From NCBI GenBank assembly GCA_018822105.1, contig JAHJLB010000063.1, forward strand, positions 1 to 60,210: a stretch of DNA of 60,210 nt, in the 5' to 3' direction. Source of the stretch: Pseudomonadota bacterium. Lineage in GTDB: Bacteria > Desulfobacterota > Desulfovibrionia > Desulfovibrionales > Desulfovibrionaceae. The translations under genes and the position numbers were made by a program. Shown in pieces: positions 1 to 10,965 of this stretch (its first letter is position 1; every line of letters starts with the position of its first letter). The notes under the pieces were generated by a model that was not told the origin of the DNA, did no database searches, and was given only the letters and a program-made list of their open reading frames with translations.

Positions 1-152
1 CCGCCCCCCCCCCCCCCGCGCAGGGTGCCTGAGCGGCTGGCAACAACCGTACGCACGGGCACAGCCTTTCACTGTTTGCTGTGCCGCTGCCGTATTGCGC
101 GCAGATCAGTGCCGAATTGCTCGCGGGTTTACTGCAGCCCCTGTTGCCCAGG

Positions 153-170
153 GTAGCAATAAAGTAGCAA
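153..170. repeat. Short direct repeat GTAGCAA, 11-bp period
   Basis: GTAGCAA occurs at 153-159 and 164-170, separated by TAAA, just outside the left island boundary. Paired short direct repeats near a tRNA attachment site can be arm-type sites of tyrosine integrases, so a second element could lie further left. Two copies are too few to settle this. The rest of 1-152 shows no gene I recognise and begins with a run of 14 C. Confidence 0.35.
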
Positions 171-172
171 AA

Positions 173-209
173 TGAAAAAATGGTTTACAGCATTTTGCCG
201 TAAACCATT
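173..209 (-). terminator. Hairpin plus T-run; probable original terminator of tRNA-Ala
   Basis: The arms AATGGTTTAC (179-188) and GTAAACCATT (200-209) are perfectly complementary with an 11-nt loop. Read on the minus strand, the hairpin is followed by a T-run (A-run at 175-180 on the plus strand). It lies 4 bp outside the left 22-bp repeat. If the island is removed by joining the repeats, the structure falls about 10 nt after the CCA end of tRNA-Ala, which is where its terminator would be expected. The structure is seen; its original role is inferred. Confidence 0.7.
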
Positions 210-212
210 GTT

Positions 213-234
213 TTCTTTGGTGGAGACGAGGGGG
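213..234. repeat. attL: left direct repeat of tRNA-Ala 3' end
   Basis: These 22 bp are identical to 10885-10906, where the same bases form the 3' end of tRNA-Ala: part of the T-stem, the acceptor strand, the discriminator base, CCA and five downstream bases. Such a copy at the far end of an element whose integrase lies beside the intact tRNA is the standard footprint of site-specific integration. Confidence 0.88.
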
Positions 235-578: not shown

Positions 579-1316
579 CTACCCCAGGATGCTCCTCACC
601 GGCTTCGCAAGCGCGGCGAAGAGTTCCTGCCGAGTATACTCGCGCGGGCCACGCGCGGGCATGCTCGACGCGTCGGCCATGAGGTTCTTGGCGTACAGGC
701 CCGGCTTGTCCGCAGTCAGGAAGATGACCCGGACGGAGTCCTCGTCCACCAACTGGGCGCCCGGGAACTTCTTCTTGGCCTCGGCCAGGGACTTTTTGGC
801 CAGGGCCAGCATGGCGTCACGGTCACCGAAGTTCATGGTGCCCGTGGGGCAGGACTGCACGCAGGCGGGCAGCTTCCCGGCCTTCACGCGGTCATTGCAC
901 ATGTCGCACTTGGCGATGACCTTGGTCTTCTTGTTCACGCGCGGGATGTCGTACGGGCAGGAGGAGCGGATGGTGGCCGCATCCTCCTTGGCCGTCTTGT
1001 CGTTGTACACCACGGCCCCGGTGTCCGGGTCCACGATGATGGAGTCAGGCAGGGACGCCCCGGACTTGCAGGGGGCGTCCAGGCAGTGGCGGCACTGATC
1101 CGGCAGGAAGAACCAGTGCATCTTGCCGCCGATCTCCTGCTCGTTGAAACGCACCAGGCGCAGGGTGACGTCCGAGAGGTCGGGCGGGTTCTGGTACGAC
1201 CCCATGTTCCTGGTCTTTTCGCCGGGCAGTTTCTTCCACTGTTTGCAGGCGACCTGGCAGCCCCGGCAGGCGGTGCATTTCGTCAGGTCAACGAAGAAGC
1301 TCTTTCCGTTACTCAT
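579..1316 (-). CDS. fdhB: Formate dehydrogenase beta subunit, iron-sulfur protein
   Basis: This 245-aa ferredoxin-like electron-transfer subunit of periplasmic formate dehydrogenase passes electrons from the catalytic subunit to a cytochrome or other acceptor. Cysteine groups are visible near the start (CTACRGCQVAC), in the middle (CRHCLDAPC), at SSCPYDIPR and later (CDMCNDR, CVQSCPTG), consistent with three or four [4Fe-4S] clusters. No Tat signal or C-terminal membrane helix is seen, so it would be exported with the Tat-bearing alpha subunit and stay soluble, as in Desulfovibrio FdhAB. It starts 11 bp after the fdhA stop. No cytochrome c3 or cytochrome b gene follows, so the acceptor must be encoded elsewhere. 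Confidence 0.93.
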   Translation of the reverse strand: MSNGKSFFVDLTKCTACRGCQVACKQWKKLPGEKTRNMGSYQNPPDLSDVTLRLVRFNEQEIGGKMHWFFLPDQCRHCLDAPCKSGASLPDSIIVDPDTGAVVYNDKTAKEDAATIRSSCPYDIPRVNKKTKVIAKCDMCNDRVKAGKLPACVQSCPTGTMNFGDRDAMLALAKKSLAEAKKKFPGAQLVDEDSVRVIFLTADKPGLYAKNLMADASSMPARGPREYTRQELFAALAKPVRSILG

Positions 1317-1327
1317 GACGCGCCTCC

Positions 1328-4300
1328 TTAGGCCTTGCGGACGTTGACCATGAAGGCCTTCGTCTCGGGGATGCCGGTGTTCGGGTCGCCAACGGACGGG
1401 GTCAGCAGGTTGGCCGCGTCACCGCCGTCCTTGGGCTGCAGCCAGCCGAAGTGCCAGGGGATGCCCACCTGGTGGGTGGTGTTGCCCTGGATCTTCATGG
1501 GCTTGAAGCGTTTGGTGACCATGGCCACGGCCCAGAGCTTGCCGCGCTCGTTCTCCAGGATGACCTTCTCGCCATTCTTGATGCCGCGCAGCTTGGCCAG
1601 CTCCTCGCTGATTTCGCAGAACATCTGCGGCTGGGCCTCCAGGAGCCAGGGCTGGTAGCGGGTCATGAGGCCCGTCTGCCAGTGCTCGGTGACGCGGTAG
1701 CTGGTGCAGACGATGGGGTAGCGCGGGTCGCACACGGAGTGCTTCTCGCCCTTGAAGCTGAGCGAGGTCGGGCTGTTCAGGGTCTTGGAGAAGACATTCT
1801 CGCTCACCGGGCAGTCACGAGGTTCGTAGTGCTCGGGGAATGGCCCGTCGTTCAGGCCCGGCCCGAAGAGCCGTCCCATGCCGTTCACCTGCATGATGAA
1901 CGGGTGCACGCTTCCCGGCGCGCCGCCGCCGTCCACCACGTCGATGTCCCATTTCTTGCCCGCAGCGTTCCAGGCCAGCACGGCCTTCTGCGGAGCGTAT
2001 GCCTTACCGGTCAGGTCCACGCCAGCGCGGTTGTAGATGATGCGGCGGTTCACCGGCCACGCCCAGGTCCAGTTGGGATACAGGCCGATGTTGGCCTGGG
2101 CCGGGGTCTGCTCCTTGGAGCGGCGCATGGCCCGGTTGCCCTTGGCGGGGTCCTCGTCCACGTAGGAGCCGCAGTAGATCCAGTTGCCGGAGCAGGTGCT
2201 GCCGTCGGCCTTGAGCTTGGCGAAGGAGGCCACCTGGGTGCCTTCCTTGTGCACCTTCACCGAACCGTCCGGCTGCTTCTCCTCCACGTCCTTCAGGTAG
2301 TAGCCGTTGATGAGCCGCGCGGTCTTGTGCGCATCAAAGCCGTGGCTGCCGCCCATGTCTTCCCAGTTCAGGCCGAGCACGGGTTCGGGGAACACGCCCC
2401 CTTCCTTCTTGTAGAGTTCGCGCAGCTTTTGGGCCAGCTCAAACATGATCTCGCCGTCCGGGCGGGACTCGCCCAGGGGCTTGGGACCCTGGTAGCGCCA
2501 CTGCATCCAGCGACCGGAGTTGGTGATGGAGCCTTCCTTCTCCGTGGACACGCAGCAGGGCAGCATGAAGACCTCGGTCTTGACCTTCTTGGGGTCCAGG
2601 CCAGGGCCTCTCCAGAAGGAGCTGGTCTCGCTGTCGTAGATGTTCACGGTAACCATCCAGTCGAGATTGCCCAACGCCTGGCGGGTCTTGTTGGAGTTGG
2701 CTCCGGAAACCGCCGGGTTCATGCCCCAGGCGAAGAAGCCCTTGAACTGGTTCTGGAACATCTTGTCGAAGAGCACCAGCCAGGAATTGTTCTGGCCGAC
2801 TTCCAGCTTGGGCAGCCAGTCGTAGCTCTGCGCGGGGTCGGCGTTCTTGTAGAAGCTCTTGAGCAGGCTCGCGATATACTTTGGGTAGTTCTTCTTCCAG
2901 TTCATGCTCTTGGGGTCCTTGGACTCGGGCTTGATCAGCTTCGAGTAGGCCTCAAGGTTGGGCTGGCCCGTGGTGGGCGTGGGCATGTAGCCGGGGATGA
3001 TGTGGTAGAGCAGGGCATGGTCCGTGGAGCCTTGGACGTTGGACTCGCCGCGCAGGGCGTTCACGCCGCCGCCAGCCACACCCATGTTGCCCAACAGAAG
3101 CTGGATCATGGCCATCGAGCGGATGTTCTGCACGCCCACAGTGTGCTGGGTCCAGCCCATGGCGTACATGGAGGTACCGGCCTTGTCGGGTTTGCCCGTG
3201 GCCGAATAGGCCTTGTAGACCGCCAGCAGCTTGTCCTGCGGGGTGCCGGTGGTGGCGCTGACGTTTTTGAGCGTGTAGCGGGTGTAGTGCTGTTTCATGA
3301 GCTGGAACACGCAGCGGGGGTCGGCAAGCGTGTTGTCACGCTTGGGGATGCCAGCCGCGTCGTACTCGAAGGCCCACTTCTTCTTGTCGTACTTGTGGGT
3401 CTTCTCGTCGAAGCCGCTGAACATGCCGTCCTTGAAGCCGAAGTCCTTGCCCACGATGAAGGAGCTGTTGGTGTTGTTGACCACATACTCCTTGAAGGCC
3501 AGGTCGTTTTCCAGGATGTAGTGGATCATGCCGCCCAGGAACGCGATGTCCGTGCCGGAGCGCAGGGGCGCGTACAGGTTCGCCTTGGAGCTGGTGCGGG
3601 TGAAGCGCGGGTCGACGTGGATGACCGTGGCCCCGGCGTCCTGGGCACGGGTGACCCACTTGAAGGAGATGGGGTGCGTCTCTGCGGCGTTGCTGCCCAT
3701 GATCAGGATGCAGTCGCTGTTCTTGATGTCGATCCAGTGGTTGGTCATGGCGCCACGGCCAAAGCTCTCGGCCAGGGCGGCCACGGTGGAACTGTGGCAG
3801 ATGCGCGCCTGGTGCTCGATGTAGGTAAGCCCCAGGGAGCGCATGAAGGCCTGGTAGGCCCAGCATTCCTCGTTGTCTATGGCTGCGGAGCCGACGCTGG
3901 CGATGCCCTCGCAGCGGTTCACGGTGACGCCCTGGGCGTTCTTCGTCACGAAGCTGGCGTCGCGGTCGCGTTTGACGCGCTTGGCGATCTGCTCAAGCGC
4001 CCAATCCCAGGACTTCGCTTCCCATTTGGTGCCGTAGGCCTTGCGGTACATGACCTTCTGCAAGCGCGGGTTGACCTGTCCGGGGGTGCCTTCGGTGAGC
4101 TGGTAGATGCTCGCGCCCTTGGCGCAGAGCGCGCCCTCGTTGATGGGATGGTCCGGGTCGCCCTCGACGTTGAGGGCGCGCTTGGAGCCGGACAGGGCGG
4201 TGTTGACGAGAAGACCGCAACCCACTGCGCAGTAACAGCACACGCTGGTGGTCTGCCTGCTCCACTCGGGCTTGAGCATTGCGATGCGGTCGACTGCGGC

Positions 4301-4402
4301 CTTGGCTTTGGCGGGCTTGGCAGCCAGACCGAGGCCGCCAAAAGCGGTGGTAAGCGCGGCGGTGGCGGAGAGTTTCAGGAACCCTCTGCGTGAAAGCGTC
4401 AT
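1328..4402 (-). CDS. fdhA: Formate dehydrogenase alpha (catalytic) subunit, Cys-type, Tat-exported
   Basis: This 1024-aa molybdopterin oxidoreductase (Mo or W) oxidises formate to CO2 in the periplasm. The N-terminus has a twin-arginine signal (SRRGFLKL, then a hydrophobic stretch to about residue 35). A [4Fe-4S] motif follows (VCCYCAVGC, then LCAKG). The metal-ligand site reads QARICHSSTVAAL: residue 202 is Cys (codon TGC) where many relatives have selenocysteine, so no SECIS element is needed. FGRGAMTNHW follows, typical of the FdnG/FdhA family. Length is usual for Desulfovibrio FdhA. The start has a strong AAGGAGG site. A Cys enzyme is usually slower but independent of selenium, which may suit a mobile gene. 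Upstream lies a 78-aa gene and a ModE-like regulator gene. Confidence 0.95.
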   Translation of the reverse strand: MTLSRRGFLKLSATAALTTAFGGLGLAAKPAKAKAAVDRIAMLKPEWSRQTTSVCCYCAVGCGLLVNTALSGSKRALNVEGDPDHPINEGALCAKGASIYQLTEGTPGQVNPRLQKVMYRKAYGTKWEAKSWDWALEQIAKRVKRDRDASFVTKNAQGVTVNRCEGIASVGSAAIDNEECWAYQAFMRSLGLTYIEHQARICHSSTVAALAESFGRGAMTNHWIDIKNSDCILIMGSNAAETHPISFKWVTRAQDAGATVIHVDPRFTRTSSKANLYAPLRSGTDIAFLGGMIHYILENDLAFKEYVVNNTNSSFIVGKDFGFKDGMFSGFDEKTHKYDKKKWAFEYDAAGIPKRDNTLADPRCVFQLMKQHYTRYTLKNVSATTGTPQDKLLAVYKAYSATGKPDKAGTSMYAMGWTQHTVGVQNIRSMAMIQLLLGNMGVAGGGVNALRGESNVQGSTDHALLYHIIPGYMPTPTTGQPNLEAYSKLIKPESKDPKSMNWKKNYPKYIASLLKSFYKNADPAQSYDWLPKLEVGQNNSWLVLFDKMFQNQFKGFFAWGMNPAVSGANSNKTRQALGNLDWMVTVNIYDSETSSFWRGPGLDPKKVKTEVFMLPCCVSTEKEGSITNSGRWMQWRYQGPKPLGESRPDGEIMFELAQKLRELYKKEGGVFPEPVLGLNWEDMGGSHGFDAHKTARLINGYYLKDVEEKQPDGSVKVHKEGTQVASFAKLKADGSTCSGNWIYCGSYVDEDPAKGNRAMRRSKEQTPAQANIGLYPNWTWAWPVNRRIIYNRAGVDLTGKAYAPQKAVLAWNAAGKKWDIDVVDGGGAPGSVHPFIMQVNGMGRLFGPGLNDGPFPEHYEPRDCPVSENVFSKTLNSPTSLSFKGEKHSVCDPRYPIVCTSYRVTEHWQTGLMTRYQPWLLEAQPQMFCEISEELAKLRGIKNGEKVILENERGKLWAVAMVTKRFKPMKIQGNTTHQVGIPWHFGWLQPKDGGDAANLLTPSVGDPNTGIPETKAFMVNVRKA

Positions 4403-4429
4403 GTTGCCTCCTTGGTTATGCGTTGCGGG

Positions 4430-4666
4430 TCAGCTGCCCAGCGTCTCGCGGCACAGCCTGACCATCAGGCGGTAGCCGGAAAGCACGGGGGGCGCGGTGG
4501 GGCGAACCTGTGTCCTCGGGAATCCCTGCTTGGGAAACACCCTGAGGAGCAGGCCGGACACCTTGCGCCGGACCTCTGCCAGGTCCAGGCCCAGACCCCC
4601 GAAGGGCAGGGTCAGGAGGCTCGGACCATCCTGTGTGGAGTGAAGCGGATCGTGGTGCTGTGTCAT
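4430..4666 (-). CDS. 78-aa protein leading the formate dehydrogenase operon
   Basis: A 78-aa protein of unknown function. The start is supported by GGAGGA six bases upstream, and the stop lies 27 bp before fdhA on the same strand, so it is probably the first gene of the operon. It contains a leucine/glycine stretch (LLTLPFGGLGLDL) and a basic second half, with no signal peptide, transmembrane helix or cysteine pair. Its size and place would suit a chaperone or maturation factor for the Tat enzyme, but I see no TorD or FdhD/FdhE motif and do not assign one. An overlapping 93-aa frame on the same strand looks like a shadow. Confidence 0.6.
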   Translation of the reverse strand: MTQHHDPLHSTQDGPSLLTLPFGGLGLDLAEVRRKVSGLLLRVFPKQGFPRTQVRPTAPPVLSGYRLMVRLCRETLGS

Positions 4667-5021
4667 GGAACTCCTCCACGGTTTCGTGAGGAGTCATCCC
4701 CGATACTCATAGGTGGGTCAAATATGTGCCATTAGCGCAAGCTCTGGCACAAATTGTCTAATTATTCTGCATATATGGCAGGAATGGCATACATGACACA
4801 TCAGACATATATCGGAGCGCAGGCACTCGTGCCGGACGACTGCTCTGAAAGGAGGGGGCAGGCCTGAGGCGTACGGAATGAATGGCCCGCCAGGGCCAGC
4901 CACACGCTCAGTAGGCGCTCGGCAAAGTGGTTTGCTGACCACGCCGAAGGGGTTCAGCCCTGGCGCGGTCGCTTCATGCGGGAGCTCTTCACTGCAGCAC
5001 GGCAGTGGGGCATCCGCTCCG
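4667..5021 (-). promoter_or_regulatory. AT-rich control region upstream of the fdh operon
   Basis: This gap between the ModE-like gene and the 78-aa gene holds an AT-rich block (about 4720-4815) that stands out from its GC-rich surroundings. It contains a perfect inverted repeat GTGCCA (4726-4731) / TGGCAC (4745-4750) with a 13-bp spacer. On the minus strand there are three related elements: CCGATATATG, CATGTATGCC and CATATATGCA. The first resembles a ModE half-site. I found no convincing sigma-70 or sigma-54 promoter. Binding by the neighbouring regulator is inference. Confidence 0.5.
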
Positions 5022-5465
5022 TCAGGTGTCCGTCTCGCTGCACTTGGCCACCTGGAACGGGAAGATCGTGCTCGCAGAGTTTAAGGCGCAGCGTTCAACG
5101 GTGGTGAACCAGGCCTGGAACTGGTCCGCGAGTTCCTCGCCAGCTGGGGTCAGGCTAACGCCATCGCGGCGCTGGCCACGGCTTTCCACGAGCTTGAGGC
5201 CCAGGACCTGCTCGGTCTGCTGGATCTTGCCCCAGGCAGCCCGGTAGGACATGCCCAGGACCTTGGCAGCCTTTCTGAGGGAGCCTTGCTGCTGGATGCT
5301 GAAGAGCAACTGCGCCCGGCCAATGCCGAAGAACAGCTCGCCCTTGTTTTCAAGCCAGAGGTGTAGGCGGAGGGTGGGACGAGGGGCGGTGGTTACGTGA
5401 AGGGCCTCGACTTCAGGGGCTTCTGTGGACCCGCCCGAACCGGACGGGAGTGCGCGGGTTGTCAT
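5022..5465 (-). CDS. ModE-like winged-helix regulator without ligand-binding domain
   Basis: This 147-aa protein is related to the DNA-binding half of ModE/TunR molybdate or tungstate regulators. The core (residues about 30-125) reads LRLHLWLENKGELFFG, GRAQLLFSIQQQGSLRKAA, LGMSYRAAWGKIQQTE and ends in a wing with RRDGVSLTPAGEEL. The C-terminal TOBE/molbindin domain that senses oxyanions in full ModE is absent. The protein may therefore bind DNA constitutively, sense another signal, or pair with another protein. GGGAGGG precedes the ATG by about 10 bases. It is followed by the fdh operon on the same strand, whose Mo/W enzyme is a plausible target. Confidence 0.82.
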   Translation of the reverse strand: MTTRALPSGSGGSTEAPEVEALHVTTAPRPTLRLHLWLENKGELFFGIGRAQLLFSIQQQGSLRKAAKVLGMSYRAAWGKIQQTEQVLGLKLVESRGQRRDGVSLTPAGEELADQFQAWFTTVERCALNSASTIFPFQVAKCSETDT

Positions 5466-5551: not shown

Positions 5552-5796
5552 GGTGCCTCCGTGGTGCCGCGCCGGGAACGATTCAACAGCGCTGTTCACA
5601 GCTAGATAGCATGGCATGGGGCGGGTGAACAAGGGCGGCAGTCGGAGGCGTCCAGAGCGGACAATGCCAATCCCTGGATATTTCTCAGCAAAAAATGTGA
5701 GCGGCTTATCCATACCACTGTGTGACCTAGGCTCCCCCTGTGGGCAGTGCAGAGCTGTAGATGGTCGAAGCTGTTGCTGGGCAAGTTCTTCCGCGC

Positions 5797-5825
5797 TTGA
5801 CATCACACATACGAACGTCTAGAAA
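5797..5825 (+). promoter_or_regulatory. Sigma-70 promoter of the serine recombinase
   Basis: TTGACA (5797-5802) and TAGAAA (5820-5825) are separated by exactly 17 bp. Transcription would start near 5832, just before the GGAGG (5841-5845) that serves the ATG at 5854. This also argues against the longer open frame from 5761. The rest of 5552-5796 shows nothing I can name. Confidence 0.7.
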
Positions 5826-5853
5826 TGCTGTCAGCACAGAGGAGGTGCCAAGG

Positions 5854-6516
5854 ATGTGTAAGGTGTACGCGTACTTGAGAGTGTCCACGGACAGGCAGGA
5901 CTTGGAGAACCAGCACATGGAGATCACAGCCTACGCCTCGCGGCTAGGGCTGGTGGTAGCCGAATGGCTGGAGGTGGAGATCAGCAGCCGGAAGGACATC
6001 GGCAAGCGCCGGATCGTGGAGCTGGTGGACAGGCTCAAGCGTGGGGACGCGCTGGTGGTGTCCGAGGTGTCCAGGCTGGCCCGTTCCATGCGCGAGGTGC
6101 ACAACATCATGGGCGACTTGGCCGCCAAGAAGGTGGAGGTCCACATCATCAAGCAGAACGTGGTTGCCCGTGGCGAGGGCGACATGACCACGGACATCCT
6201 GATCAACGCCTTTGCCATGGCTGCCCAGATGGAGCGCACCCTGATCAGCCAGAGAACCAAGAATGGGCTGGCGAGAGTGAAGGCCCAGGGCAAGAAGCTG
6301 GGCAACCCCGGCCTTGAGCGCATCAACGCTGCCCGCCAGGAGAAGGCGGACCAGGGTGTGGAGCGCCTGCGGGCCACGCTGGCAGCCTTCAAGGGCCAGG
6401 GCCTGACCCAGCGCCGCATGGTGGAGGAGCTGAACGGCCTGGGGATCAGGACCGCCCAGGGGTGTGCCTGGACCCTGTGTGCCGTGCAGAGGGCCTTGAA
6501 GCGCCTGGGGCTGTAA
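5854..6516 (+). CDS. Small serine recombinase (resolvase/invertase family)
   Basis: A 220-aa site-specific recombinase. The N-terminal catalytic domain begins VYAYLRVSTDRQDLENQ, with the nucleophilic Ser at residue 10 after the conserved Arg. EVSRLARS and an arginine-rich E-helix region (MERTLISQRTKNGLARVKAQGK) follow. The last 45 residues form a helix-turn-helix (GLTQRRMVEELNGLGIRTAQG...) for DNA binding. The size fits Tn3-type resolvases and Hin-like invertases, not large serine integrases. The start at 5854 has GGAGG eight bases upstream and a promoter in front. It is followed by the polymerase-like gene and may resolve dimers or replication intermediates of the element. Confidence 0.88.
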   Translation: MCKVYAYLRVSTDRQDLENQHMEITAYASRLGLVVAEWLEVEISSRKDIGKRRIVELVDRLKRGDALVVSEVSRLARSMREVHNIMGDLAAKKVEVHIIKQNVVARGEGDMTTDILINAFAMAAQMERTLISQRTKNGLARVKAQGKKLGNPGLERINAARQEKADQGVERLRATLAAFKGQGLTQRRMVEELNGLGIRTAQGCAWTLCAVQRALKRLGL

Positions 6517-6607
6517 TCCTGCCCCTGGACGCCGGGCCGATCTTCAATTATCCCGATCACCTCACCCTGGCAGGGCGGGGTGGTCATCTTGTGTGCAGGA
6601 GGGGCAG

Positions 6608-7918
6608 GTGCAAGACCAGGACATTGAGCAGGCCGAGGCTGAGGAGCAGGAGGAACGGCTCCGGGACAGCCACTTCAACCCATGGCGCATGCCCCGGACG
6701 GAGAAGTCCAGGACGGTGGTCGCCGAAGTCCTCCAGCAGCTCCAGGCCTACGAGGGACACCACCAGCTCCGCAAGCGCAGCCGCAGGAAGGCGGACCAGG
6801 AGACCTTCGAGGCCACGGTCTCGGCCATCATCTCGAACCTGGCGTACCACCACCTCATGGAGCGCGAGGCCGGGGTCTACATCACCCGTTCCCACCGCTA
6901 CCTGGGCCTCAAAGGGCGCTACCAGCCAAAGGCCTACAGCAAGACCCTGCCGGACATCCTGGATCGCCTCGGATCGCAGGAGCTGGCCTTCCTGGACATG
7001 GAACTCGGCACGGACTGCCCCTTCGGCACTCCCCTGGAGACCTCCATCCGGGCAGGCAGGCGGCTCCTTGCGCTTGTCCATGAGCATGGCCTCCAGCCGG
7101 AGGACTTCGGCCTCGACCACGCCCAAGAGGTGATCCAGCTCAAGCGGTCCAAGCTGGGGGGCTGGGACAAGGGCGACTTCGCAGAGTACGAGGACACCCC
7201 GGAAACCATCCGCTACCGCGAGCAGGTCCAGGCCATCAACGCGTGGCTGGATTCGGCGGAGATCGACTTCGACGAGTACTACTGGCCTAAGGGCAGGCCG
7301 GTGGACACTTTGGACCGACGACTGAGGCGGGTGTTCACCCAGGGCAGTTTCGACAGTGGGGGCAGGCTATTCGGCGGGTTCTGGCAGTCCCTGGGCAAGG
7401 AAGCTCGACGGAAGGGCCTGTTCATCAACCAGGAGGAGGTGGTGGAGCTGGACTACGGCCAGATGAACCCCCGCATCCTCTACGGCCTGTGCGGTGCGCA
7501 GCCGCCAGATGGTGACGCCTATGACATCCCCGGCATCAAGCACAGCAGGAGCGGGGTGAAGAAGGTCATGAACGCCATGCTCTTCCACGACAAGCGGCTG
7601 GTCAGGATGCCCAAGGGCGTCCGCAAGTTCTTCGAGGAGCGCTACACCGTGGAGGCGGTCATGCGGGCCATTGAGTCCGCTCATCCGGCCATCAAGGACA
7701 GCTTCTTCACCGGGATCGGCCACCAGGCCCAGTGCATAGAAAGCCAGGTGATGGTGGAGGTCCTGCTCTCCCTCCGTAAGTTGAGGGTCCATGCCCTTCC
7801 TGTCCATGACTCCGTGGTGGTGGGGAGATCAAACAAGGACAAGGTCAAGGAGATCATGCTCTCCTGCTTCCTCAAGGTGGTGGGTGTACAGGGTCTTGTG
7901 GATGAGGTGGTAGGATGA
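6608..7918 (+). CDS. Compact protein with family-A polymerase-like motifs
   Basis: A 436-aa protein I cannot match to a characterised family, but its second half has polymerase-like motifs in the right order. Motif A-like VVELDYGQMNPRILYG has Asp282 and resembles the DYSQIELR motif of DNA polymerase I. Motif B-like RSGVKKVMNAML has K319-x-x-N322. Motif C-like VHDSVVVG has H400-D401-S402; HDS is the form in T7-like RNA polymerases, HDE in Pol I. The spacing is shorter than in Pol I and no exonuclease domain is present. The N-terminal third is basic and helical. The start is taken as GTG 6608, five bases after AGGAGG; GTG 6593 is an alternative. It is preceded by the resolvase gene. Confidence 0.6.
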   Translation: MQDQDIEQAEAEEQEERLRDSHFNPWRMPRTEKSRTVVAEVLQQLQAYEGHHQLRKRSRRKADQETFEATVSAIISNLAYHHLMEREAGVYITRSHRYLGLKGRYQPKAYSKTLPDILDRLGSQELAFLDMELGTDCPFGTPLETSIRAGRRLLALVHEHGLQPEDFGLDHAQEVIQLKRSKLGGWDKGDFAEYEDTPETIRYREQVQAINAWLDSAEIDFDEYYWPKGRPVDTLDRRLRRVFTQGSFDSGGRLFGGFWQSLGKEARRKGLFINQEEVVELDYGQMNPRILYGLCGAQPPDGDAYDIPGIKHSRSGVKKVMNAMLFHDKRLVRMPKGVRKFFEERYTVEAVMRAIESAHPAIKDSFFTGIGHQAQCIESQVMVEVLLSLRKLRVHALPVHDSVVVGRSNKDKVKEIMLSCFLKVVGVQGLVDEVVG

Positions 7919-7920
7919 TC

Positions 7921-7983
7921 ATGAACAAGTATAACTACATGGGGAACTACCCACTCTCCTTTAGTGGGACCCGTAAGCCATGA
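7921..7983 (+). CDS. Possible 20-aa linker ORF with hairpin
   Basis: ATG 7921 opens a 20-codon frame (MNKYNYMGNYPLSFSGTRKP) whose TGA overlaps the ATG of the next gene. Inside it CCCACT (7950-7955) pairs with AGTGGG (7963-7968) around the loop CTCCTTT, which is complementary to a Shine-Dalgarno sequence. It could be a translational control element for the zinc-finger gene, which has no strong ribosome site of its own. Confidence 0.25.
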   Translation: MNKYNYMGNYPLSFSGTRKP

Positions 7984-8798
7984 CCGACTGGAGCCAGCGC
8001 CTGAAGCGCAAGCAGGACGTGAAGGACCGCGCCAACGTCCCGAACCACATGTACGGCTACTGCCGGGTGATCCACTGCGGCAGGCCAGCCAGGGCCGGGA
8101 CATCGGACGGCCTGGACGAGCGGTACTGCCGCGCCCACGCCGACCACAACCAGCGGCACGGCAGCCCGCTCAAGGGATCGTACACGGCCAGGGAGCTGAA
8201 TCCCTACCGCCGGGCGGCCCTAGCCTGGATCGTGGCCCACGAGGACAACAGGTGGGTGCAGAACGCCGTCCAGCGGGTGCAGGGCCTCTACCAGCAGGCC
8301 GGGCCGTACATCGAGGCCTTCCGGCTCCGGGGCCTGCCGCCGCAGGACCGAGCCAAGGCGGCCCTGGCGAGGCTCCGCCAGCATGGTACCGACCCCCGGC
8401 TGGTCGTCGCCGCGTGGCTGGCCGTGGAGCTGGTCATCCTGGACGATCCTCAGCCGGTCACCAGCACCGAGTACAAGCGCGTCCAGGCGGCCAAGGTGGT
8501 CCACCGCATGGCCTCAGGATCGCATCGGCGCTGGGTGAGGGAAGTCCCGTCGCCCGTCTGGCCGGGCCAGAAGCAGGCCCAGGTCCAGGAACTGCACGTG
8601 TACCCTCGCAGCCGTGGCCGAGTCCTCCGTCATCTGGGCGAGGCCCTGGAGTCGGCGGTGGAGCTGCTGGTGGATCACCACCTCACGGACGTCCACGCCT
8701 TCAAGCGTGAGCAGGGCGCGACAGGAGCCTCAGGCGCTCGGCCCTACCCGAGGGGCTGGGTGTCCAGGCCCAGGAGCAAGGACGACGAGGAGAAGTAG
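7980..8798 (+). CDS. Putative zinc-binding protein, partner of the polymerase-like protein
   Basis: A 272-aa protein of unknown function. Residues about 27-62 carry a possible zinc site: YCRVIHCGRPAR, then DERYCRAHADHNQRHGSP, giving a C-x5-C plus C-x2-H pattern. The R-Y-C-x-x-H ... R-x-G-x-P segment resembles the short zinc motifs in some phage HNH-type proteins, but no HNH catalytic motif is seen. The rest is mostly helical and basic, suggesting nucleic-acid binding. It begins 61 bp after the polymerase-like gene, linked by a tiny overlapping ORF, so the two are probably co-expressed. Confidence 0.55.
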   Translation: MTDWSQRLKRKQDVKDRANVPNHMYGYCRVIHCGRPARAGTSDGLDERYCRAHADHNQRHGSPLKGSYTARELNPYRRAALAWIVAHEDNRWVQNAVQRVQGLYQQAGPYIEAFRLRGLPPQDRAKAALARLRQHGTDPRLVVAAWLAVELVILDDPQPVTSTEYKRVQAAKVVHRMASGSHRRWVREVPSPVWPGQKQAQVQELHVYPRSRGRVLRHLGEALESAVELLVDHHLTDVHAFKREQGATGASGARPYPRGWVSRPRSKDDEEK

Positions 8799-9021: not shown

Positions 9022-10794
9022 TCACGGCTCCAGCACCCAACGGCTGCCCTTGAGGTGCTCCAGGTCCACGCCGAAGTCCAGTTTGAGGATGAGGCCCTCA
9101 TAGCGCATCCTCTCCCGCCCGTGAATGTAGTTCTGTTGGATGGGGCCGCTGTACTCATGGCCTACGGTCTCTGCAATCAAGGGATCGGGGATGCCGAGGG
9201 TGCGGGCCGTGTGGATGAGGGTGTGCCGGAAGCTGTGAAAGACCTTCTTGCCCTCTCCGGGTGTAGTGCCCAGCCCCAGCTTCTTGAGGTGCAGTCCGAA
9301 CCACTTGGACACAGGGTGTGAGTAGGTGAAGTTCGTCTCCCTGGTCTTCTTGAGCATGGGGAACAGGCGCTCATGACCTTGCCGCTTGAGGCTCTTCACG
9401 TAGGCCGGGAAGTGCAGCCCGTCCACCAGGAAGGGGTGCAGGGGCACCATGCGGATGCCTGCCTCCGTCTTCACCGAGGTGTCCACTTCCCCCGTGGCGT
9501 CCAGGGTCTCCGTGATGTCCAGGCACCAAATGCCATCCACCTGCTTGATGTGCTCCAGACGGAGCTGACAAATCTCTTCAAGCCGCGCCCCGGTGAACAT
9601 GCCCAGCACGGGCACCCAGAACTTCCAGGGTATGGTGAAGCTGTCCTCCAGGTAGCCCCGGCTGTGGAAGATGGCCTTGAGGTCTGCCGGGGTGAATGGT
9701 GCCCGCTTGTCCTCGGGCTTTTTCTTGGGCACCCTGATGGCGAGCACGTCCTTGATGGATGCGTCCGCAATGAGGCCGTAGGTCTTCATCCACGACAGGA
9801 AGGACCGGATGCGGCTGAAGAGGTTGCTGACGGTGTCCGGGGCGTAGCGGTCTTCCTCGGGTATCTCCATCGTCAGCAGGCGCTCCAAAGTCTTGTCGCG
9901 GTACTTGGGGCTGGTCTTTCGGCTGGCGGGAAGGCGGCGCAGGTCGGCCTTGAAGTCGGCCAGCCTCTCCGCTGTGAGCTGGTCCGTGGGGATGTCGCCC
10001 ACAAGCTCTACGAACTGGGCCAGATGGTCCATGACCGTCCTCGCGGTGCGCCTCCCCTTCCACTCGCTGTTGGCCCTCTTGTCGGCCTCGTACTTCTTGA
10101 GCGCCTCGGAGAGCAGCGGTCCTGCCTTCTTGGGTGGGGCGGGCACGACGGGCGGCACGGACGCTGCCTGGGCCAAAGGCTGGGCAGGCACCACTGGGCG
10201 TGGGAACAGCTCGGCCTCCCCAGTGTAGTCGCCCTGCGCCCGGCGCTGCTCAATCTCGGCCCACTTGCCCGAGGCGATGAGCAAGGCGCGGCAGAGCTTC
10301 CCGTAGTCGGCGCTGTCCTTGGAGACCGAGAGGCCCTCTGTGGCAAGGAGCTTGTCAGCCGTGGGGGCGATCCAGCCCAGGTCATTGAGGGCCAGCTTGT
10401 CCTTCACCATGGCCTGGAGCTGTCCCAGGATCGCGGGGTGCTGCTCGACGTACTCCGGCGTGTACGGTTCCCTGCTCGTTGCCCTTCTGGTCTCCCAGGC
10501 CTCTAGCTCGGCCCGTAGGTACTTGTCCGCGAGTCCCTGAATCTGAACGTCTGTGAGTGCCGCCATGCTGGTGTCCCCGGTGCGAAGTCGTAGGATGAGG
10601 TTCTGTAGTACCGCCGCCGCCTGAAGCGCCTTGCTGCGGGCCTCGGACAGATAGGCCGTGCGGAGCGACAGGCGGAACTCCGTCCGCCCCAAGCGCTGCC
10701 TCAAGTCCCTCGGAACGGCGTGGCGAAAGTAGAAGACGTGGCCCTGTTTGACAAGATGTGCGGGCGCTTTGGAAATGAAGATGCCGACTCCCAT
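9022..10794 (-). CDS. Tyrosine recombinase (island integrase)
   Basis: A 590-aa integrase of the lambda type that would insert and excise the island at tRNA-Ala. The N-terminus (APAHLVKQGHVFYFRHAVP, RLGRTEFRLSLRTAYLSEA) resembles the arm-binding region of large proteobacterial integrases. A SAM-like core-binding domain follows (about 240-350). Catalytic residues visible are Arg404 (TGARLEE), His520 and Arg523 (HSFRHT), His546 (VGHEYSG) and Tyr556 (QQNYIHG), a complete set. It is transcribed away from the tRNA, starting about 95 bp downstream of it in the same direction, so tRNA readthrough could contribute to expression. Confidence 0.95.
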   Translation of the reverse strand: MGVGIFISKAPAHLVKQGHVFYFRHAVPRDLRQRLGRTEFRLSLRTAYLSEARSKALQAAAVLQNLILRLRTGDTSMAALTDVQIQGLADKYLRAELEAWETRRATSREPYTPEYVEQHPAILGQLQAMVKDKLALNDLGWIAPTADKLLATEGLSVSKDSADYGKLCRALLIASGKWAEIEQRRAQGDYTGEAELFPRPVVPAQPLAQAASVPPVVPAPPKKAGPLLSEALKKYEADKRANSEWKGRRTARTVMDHLAQFVELVGDIPTDQLTAERLADFKADLRRLPASRKTSPKYRDKTLERLLTMEIPEEDRYAPDTVSNLFSRIRSFLSWMKTYGLIADASIKDVLAIRVPKKKPEDKRAPFTPADLKAIFHSRGYLEDSFTIPWKFWVPVLGMFTGARLEEICQLRLEHIKQVDGIWCLDITETLDATGEVDTSVKTEAGIRMVPLHPFLVDGLHFPAYVKSLKRQGHERLFPMLKKTRETNFTYSHPVSKWFGLHLKKLGLGTTPGEGKKVFHSFRHTLIHTARTLGIPDPLIAETVGHEYSGPIQQNYIHGRERMRYEGLILKLDFGVDLEHLKGSRWVLEP

Positions 10795-10884: not shown

Positions 10885-10906
10885 TTCTTTGGTGGAGACG
10901 AGGGGG
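10885..10906. repeat. attR: right direct repeat within tRNA-Ala
   Basis: Identical to 213-234. It covers the last 17 bases of tRNA-Ala and five bases after the CCA. Because the tRNA sequence is restored by the element, the tRNA remains intact. Confidence 0.88.
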
Positions 10907-10965
10907 ATTGAACCCCTGGCCTATGCGTTGCGAACGCATCGCTCTCCCAGCTGAGCTACGTCCCC
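10890..10965 (-). tRNA. tRNA-Ala, anticodon CGC
   Basis: A 76-nt cloverleaf. The acceptor strand GGGGACG pairs with CGTCTCC (one G-U). The D-arm is GCTC/GAGC. The anticodon stem ATGCG/CGCAT carries the loop TTCGCAA, giving anticodon CGC for Ala codon GCG. The T-arm is AGGGG/CCCCT with loop TTCAATC. Discriminator A and CCA are encoded. It is the integration target of the island. Confidence 0.96.

Follow-up and report, generated by a model that had tools for sequence, protein, structure and literature searches.

TV-Pols, a minimal family-A polymerase core found in transposons and viruses, were described by Iyer, Abhiman and Aravind in 2008 (PMC2579912). TV-Pol genes adjoin those of gamma-delta resolvases, lambda-type integrases or transposases, the elements tend to lie where restriction-modification operons abound, and one three-gene element consists of a TV-Pol, a resolvase and a Bro-N/KilA-C gene; a primase plus polymerase activity was proposed for the group (PMC2579912). 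The divPolA2 of barbaviruses has a palm but neither a thumb homologous to those of other DNA polymerases nor an exonuclease, and occurs beside a regular PolB; Yutin et al. (2024) suggested that it may be a repair DNA polymerase or perhaps an RNA polymerase, and their paper names TV-Pol once, in its background (PMC11348598). Here we describe P0001, the 436-residue protein encoded at 6608..7918 on the forward strand of a 60,210-nucleotide stretch of a genome of the Desulfovibrionaceae (contig JAHJLB010000063.1; the whole stretch is called the window). P0001 is very probably a family-A-fold polymerase of the TV-Pol/divPolA2 group, carried on a probable integrative island.

Fold and relatives of P0001

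The open reading frame (ORF) is genuine: it starts with GTG five bases behind an AGGAGG ribosome-binding site read from the sequence (6597..6602, forward strand), and it is under purifying selection, with dN/dS values of 0.22, 0.33 and 0.38 against three relatives. The predicted structure of P0001 contains a family-A palm and fingers. Helices are present at residues 32-51 and 61-83, candidates for the two antiparallel helices of a TV-Pol thumb, and hairpin strands at 239-243 and 251-256 carry R253. All 50 matches listed in the VIA structural comparison are DNA polymerases, with no RNA polymerase among them, and few of them span residues 1-170; this N-terminal part has no Pfam match. The cell's own Pol I is encoded elsewhere in the genome and is a different protein. 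A PHROG-profile search found a second copy of the P0001 family in the same genome.

Conventional profiles recognise the protein poorly. P0001 matched no Pfam family at E <= 1, the gathering score of DNA_pol_A (PF00476) was not reached and RNA_pol was not matched; its relative L035 met RNA_pol only at E 0.15, and none of three scanned family members reached a Pfam cut-off. NCBIfam gave no match near its cut-off, and phmmer against the PDB sequences returned no usable family. Two stray candidates were discarded, namely NCBIfam VirB4 (E 0.022, far below cut-off) and PADLOC RmrT (E 0.015, no passing stretch). P0001 does belong to the PHROG family phrog_4756, listed with 'unknown function' (E 1e-35 over residues 61-427); we found no paper naming this family in the open-licence literature.

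One published counterpart is found in a phage. The family profile matches gp041 of Barba31A at E 7e-70 (three stretches searched), and the Barba31A record is matched at 1e-78 with the A2 profile. The family profile includes no named barbavirus row, and the viral row L081 is gp041's sister in the tree. From its phage, fold and size we infer that gp041 is the published divPolA2. P0001 resembles it in full-length profile and fold, in its palm and in having another DNA polymerase alongside; the likeness may extend to the lack of a recognisable exonuclease and to an N-terminal part with no known match. It differs in setting: divPolA2 is described in phage genomes (PMC11348598), whereas the window copy is chromosomal, beside a tRNA gene, and accompanied by recombinases and a further gene, orf272. 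P0001 also fits the gamma-delta-resolvase subset of TV-Pols, with which it shares the minimal family-A core, a fully conserved hairpin arginine, two metal aspartates in an RRM-like palm, a fingers aspartate and an RxxxK motif, as well as resolvase, integrase or Bro-N/KilA-C neighbours and a placement in restriction-modification hot spots. In Ma-LMM01, a phage named by Iyer et al. (PMC2579912), the A2 profile found nothing at E <= 1. By hhalign, gp030 of that phage, which is only inferred to be a TV-Pol, aligned with the family at E 7e-4, compared with 0.14-0.74 for four other profiles; the gp030 profile held 14 sequences, gp030 and 13 others at 91-94% likeness to it.

An earlier sequence-only reading had placed this ORF and its motifs where we find them, with Asp282 and Asp401 at the positions given, and had proposed a family-A-like polymerase with no exonuclease. 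The predicted fold bears this out, and no exonuclease was recognised; the structural intuition was good. Its suggestion that the polymerase was undescribed does not hold, as P0001 lies in phrog_4756, matches the published divPolA2 and fits the published TV-Pols. The replication or repair role that it put forward is conjectural.

The family is widespread. By tblastn, 196 of 50,697 phage records contain a relative, in every case less than 60% identical (22-30% among the 40 matches listed, every one annotated as hypothetical), as do 4 of 72,556 plasmid records. The PHROG profile detected the family in 35 of the 297 genomes sampled from the class. The nearest named relatives, at 67-92% identity, are from metagenome-assembled genomes of Desulfovibrio and Humidesulfovibrio and from one 'Deltaproteobacteria bacterium'. 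A FastTree tree built on 81 sequences intermixes viral and genome rows; the members of the window clade with orf272 beside them, eight in number, form one group in it with support 1.0.

Catalytic motifs and the sugar gate

Conservation was assessed in an alignment, A1, of 33 sequences: P0001, four from a peptide-pattern scan and 28 from the PHROG-profile search, leaving out L031 (a 184-residue fragment) and L034 (judged by its ORF, the same place as L002). Viral contigs yielded no relatives when scanned with P0001 alone and 54 when scanned with A1. The short ORFs L040, L049 and L068 were dropped before counting, leaving 51 of at least 300 residues, and a further seven rows were removed as near-duplicates or 5'-open (L055, L065, L067, L078, L079, L084 and L086). 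The 44 that remained, together with A1, make up the set of 77 used below.

Ten residues are invariant in A1 (33/33): R241, F243, G251, G252, R253, R267, Y305, R314, K318 and M417. Ahead of motif A lies GGR (residues 251-253, 7358..7366), with the hairpin arginine; G252 and R253 are present in all 77 members. We take the wider GGRFY to be comparable to the DxxGR element of RNA polymerases. Motif A, ELDYGQMNPRILY (residues 280-292, 7445..7483), supplies the metal-binding Asp282; motif B, or O-helix (residues 314-326, 7547..7585), is helical over its whole length in the model and contains R314 and K318 (77/77 each); and motif C, VHDSVV (residues 399-404, 7802..7819), supplies Asp401. All lie on the forward strand. 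Each metal aspartate is conserved in 32/33 sequences of A1 and 76/77 overall, the sole exception in A1, L017, having neither. A fingers aspartate, Asp303, is found in 72/77. Across the alignment, the conservation of these motif residues exceeds chance. Asp282, R314 and K318 each occur in 44/44 viral relatives; the HDS of motif C does so too, by construction, because the pattern that recruited these rows included HDS.

The sequence-only reading had described a mixture of DNA and RNA polymerase features and a pair of metal aspartates, and both stand: HDS is the motif C form of T7 RNA polymerase (residue 811), T7 DNA polymerase having HDE, and the aspartates are conserved as given above.

Two members of the family depart from this plan. 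In G193, L351 has tandem copies (1880-3220 and 3466-4803), of which the first has neither metal aspartate (motif A ELGY, motif C HES) and the second retains both; the two read as a dead/live pair that may form a heterodimer. The other, at L352:2639-4285 of the same genome, is a 548-residue protein with about 125 additional residues between the N-terminal part and the palm.

The family also differs from Pol I at the positions that select deoxynucleoside triphosphates (dNTPs). The third of these corresponds, in the numbering we take for Pol I, to Tyr766, and in the 77 sequences it is Asn in 69, Phe in 7 and Tyr in 1. The first, Glu710, is occupied by His in 63 sequences, by Asn in 7 (P0001 among them, at residue 287), by Gln in 4 and by Ser, Phe and Trp in one each, but never by Glu; the second, Phe762, is occupied by Asn in 38, Leu in 30, Met in 4, Val in 2 and by Ser, Thr and Phe in one each (the numbering of these two follows PMC7581432). 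Equivalence was set by ungapped spacing from Asp282 and Lys318 rather than by residue-by-residue structural alignment. In 30 control Pol I sequences the first-position pattern matched 25 (Glu in 23, Asp in 2), and the pattern for the second and third positions matched 28 (Phe/Tyr in 25, Tyr/Tyr in 1 and two apparent false matches). By this spacing, the dNTP-selecting residues of Pol I appear to have been lost family-wide, which is a new detail. That the entire divPolA2/TV-Pol branch is a family-A polymerase with a swapped sugar gate, His/Asn standing in for Glu and Asn/Leu for Phe, is a bolder proposal, and one that we consider unlikely.

The one biochemically tested enzyme that we found counted among TV-Pols is CCPol, which retains E174 and F225, the equivalents of E710 and F762, and uses dNTPs (PMC7581432). 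Because it keeps both Glu and Phe, its preference is not simply transferable to the P0001 family. The CCPol-MP and PolA-SSB primases of SCC elements resemble the window locus in pairing a mobile-element family-A polymerase with a small neighbour gene, with recombinases near (PMC7581432, PMC10061031); they differ in that CCPol has the two gate residues that the P0001 family has lost.

With the Pol I gate gone, use of ribonucleotides might become possible, and P0001 might instead synthesise RNA, as the element's RNA primase or as a compact RNA polymerase. T7 RNA polymerase likewise has neither of the first two gate residues (Gly and Met at these positions), while the dNTP-using CCPol keeps both, and HDSF is the motif C of T7 RNA polymerase. 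The only stretch that hhalign aligned between the family and that enzyme falls there, at a chance-level E of 0.078; the family against T7 DNA polymerase gave a likewise chance-level 0.04, over a stretch that holds none of the motifs, and a resolvase control gave 0.41, the T7-like profiles being shallow. Yutin et al. also weighed an RNA polymerase and reported mitochondrial RNA polymerase among their structural matches (PMC11348598). Our own listed structural matches are all DNA polymerases, which leaves that reported resemblance standing. Eight residues after the motif B lysine, at the third gate position, T7 RNA polymerase has Tyr, and the family Asn or Phe; the Pfam RNA_pol profile does not match P0001; and T7 RNA polymerase is 883 residues long against 436. 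We regard an RNA-synthesising enzyme as unlikely, though the least unlikely of the alternatives. As the active site has none of the residues that reject RNA building blocks, the product of P0001 is a testable question.

The tRNA-Ala island and the partner gene orf272

Exact 22-bp direct repeats at 213..234 and 10885..10906 enclose 10,672 bp that include the polymerase gene. The second copy lies at the 3' end of a tRNA-Ala(CGC) gene (10890..10965, reverse strand), the probable integration target, and the two are probably the distal and tRNA-end att repeats. A serine recombinase of the resolvase family (5851..6516, forward, with a possible start at 5761; PF00239, E 6e-31) precedes the polymerase, and a tyrosine integrase with a DUF6538 domain (9022..10794, reverse; PF20172, PF00589) lies between orf272 and the tRNA gene. 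The sequence-only reading had placed the gene on a mobile element, and it does lie beside mobility genes. The genome's other copy of the family likewise adjoins a DUF6538 integrase, which in turn neighbours a tRNA-Ser.

Fourteen other genomes of the genus were searched for the site. In five of them (G054, G227, G174, G025 and G001) the tRNA end runs straight into sequence like that on the far side of the distal repeat (window 152-212), which reads as the site without the window island. G227 and G025 are the only clean sites, with no second copy of the tRNA end in the 4.5 and 1.1 kb that their contigs still cover. The other three complicate this reading: a further partial tRNA end lies at 8 kb in G054, at 19 kb in G174, where it adjoins an integrase, and at 11 and 29 kb in G001, so that the site may be occupied by other islands. 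Within the genus, tRNA-Ala(CGC) looks like a hot spot for islands (L356 in G174, L357 in G001, L353 in G054). The repeated partial tRNA ends at this site are 8-29 kb apart, one of them beside an integrase.

The remaining genes between the repeats are an iron-sulfur subunit (579-1316; Fer4_11) and a molybdopterin subunit (1328-4402; Molybdopterin) resembling those of formate dehydrogenase, which we class as cargo, and an HTH_1 regulator (5022..5465; PF00126, E 4e-12), all on the reverse strand. The formate-dehydrogenase-like ORF (579-4402) contains ARICHSS, which suggests that the enzyme uses Cys and not selenocysteine.

Mobility genes accompany the family well beyond the window. Resolvase homologues were found near 12 of 30 family genome loci and 3 of 54 loci in viral contigs, and tyrosine integrases near 8/30 and 5/54. 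Around Pol I (control loci taken from other genomes) and around T7-like DNA polymerase, resolvase, integrase and Bro-N/KilA-C were each found at 0/30 loci. At one locus, L318 of G220, the polymerase has a Bro-N/KilA-C gene as well as a resolvase and an integrase for company. These companions bear on whether P0001 is an accessory polymerase for repair or translesion synthesis, repair being one of the options of Yutin et al. (PMC11348598). P0001 has no recognised exonuclease, and the two phages examined, KASIA and Barba31A, each have another DNA polymerase too; the recognised neighbours in the loci examined are, however, recombinases, an antirepressor-like gene and restriction genes, and no repair genes were recognised nearby, though most flanking ORFs were not scanned. 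A repair role is improbable in our judgement.

Directly downstream of the polymerase lies orf272 (7980..8798, forward), whose product has a Cys/His-rich N-terminal part. Matches at >= 60% identity occur at nine places in the 297 genomes (L001 = G250, L002/L034 = G288, L003 = G185, L004 = G001 and L032 = G150 being counted once), and at all nine they stand directly downstream of a polymerase match. Eight weak matches (27-41% identity over part of the protein) lie away from family members and probably represent another family; no viral relatives of orf272 were found. One of the nine, a decayed pair in G185 (L320:10548-11217, contig C19), survives only as remnants: the polymerase end and the opening 84 codons of orf272, together with a resolvase-like remnant. 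By profile search, the pair has both a resolvase and an integrase beside it in the window and in G250 and G220; elsewhere such neighbours vary or fail to appear, and the pair is therefore not tied to one mobility type.

The surroundings of some pairs raise the idea of a defence or anti-phage cargo module made up of the polymerase and orf272. The L319 copy directly follows hsdMSR, L315 has GmrSD_N and Eco57I-type genes a few kilobases off, ORFs of L316 and L317 share their opening residues with this GmrSD-type ORF, and a CRISPR array lies beside the pair in L318. PADLOC gave no passing match for either gene (best E 0.015), however, and phages carry the family as well. Proximity to restriction genes needs no functional link, because TV-Pol elements sit in restriction-modification hot spots (PMC2579912). 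A defence module seems very improbable, and we set it aside on context alone. The array in L318 (about 5777-8600) is of CRISPR type, with repeats of ~29 bp at 61-bp spacing, and adjoins the pair.

A proposed role and its meaning

We propose that P0001 would make short strands, or lengthen them, on the DNA of its own element, by priming, gap-filling or both, that this synthesis would accompany the excision and integration carried out by the recombinases of the element, and that the orf272 product may act as a DNA-binding partner of the polymerase. The context suggests, at slightly better than even confidence, that P0001 serves its element by priming or extending DNA; the explanation as a whole, with a TV-Pol/divPolA2-group polymerase of a tRNA-Ala island, a strand-making role and orf272 as partner, is the one we favour, with reasonable rather than strong confidence.

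A number of observations weigh against it. The hhalign score of the family against Pol I is weak (E 0.005, where the known homologues T7 RNA polymerase and T7 DNA polymerase give 0.087), and family-A membership therefore rests on the predicted fold. The likeness to TV-Pols is one of features, no sequence from the figures of Iyer et al. having been compared with certainty. No helicase, D5-like included, was recognised among the eight window ORFs scanned; in this, and in having orf272 as the partner, the locus differs from TV-Pol elements, and it may differ too from the SCC primases, which have an OB-fold partner and a helicase (PMC7581432, PMC10061031). The predicted model of orf272 is helical, with no strands, and at a pLDDT of 37 is unusable; it speaks neither for nor against an OB-fold SSB. 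Bro-N/KilA-C homologues lie near only 1/30 family loci, plus L318. Around the orf272 pairs, neither resolvase nor integrase was found by profile in the 19.5-kb stretches of G150, G001 and G185 C17, G090 has resolvases only, about 6 kb or more from the pair, and G288 has only an integrase-like fragment of 80 residues. Nor did we find activity data or a biochemical study of the divPolA2/TV-Pol-like branch in the open-licence literature.

With P0001, a known group of transposon and phage polymerases gains a member, a small cousin of DNA polymerase I, from a family that is common both in the class and among phages. The phage divPolA2 is now tied to recombinase-linked mobile elements. Iyer et al. 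proposed that T7-like RNA polymerases arose from a small primase-like family-A enzyme (PMC2579912). Because of this tie and the apparent loss of the sugar gate across the family, that old question of origin may now be put to a direct biochemical test on a protein of 436 residues.
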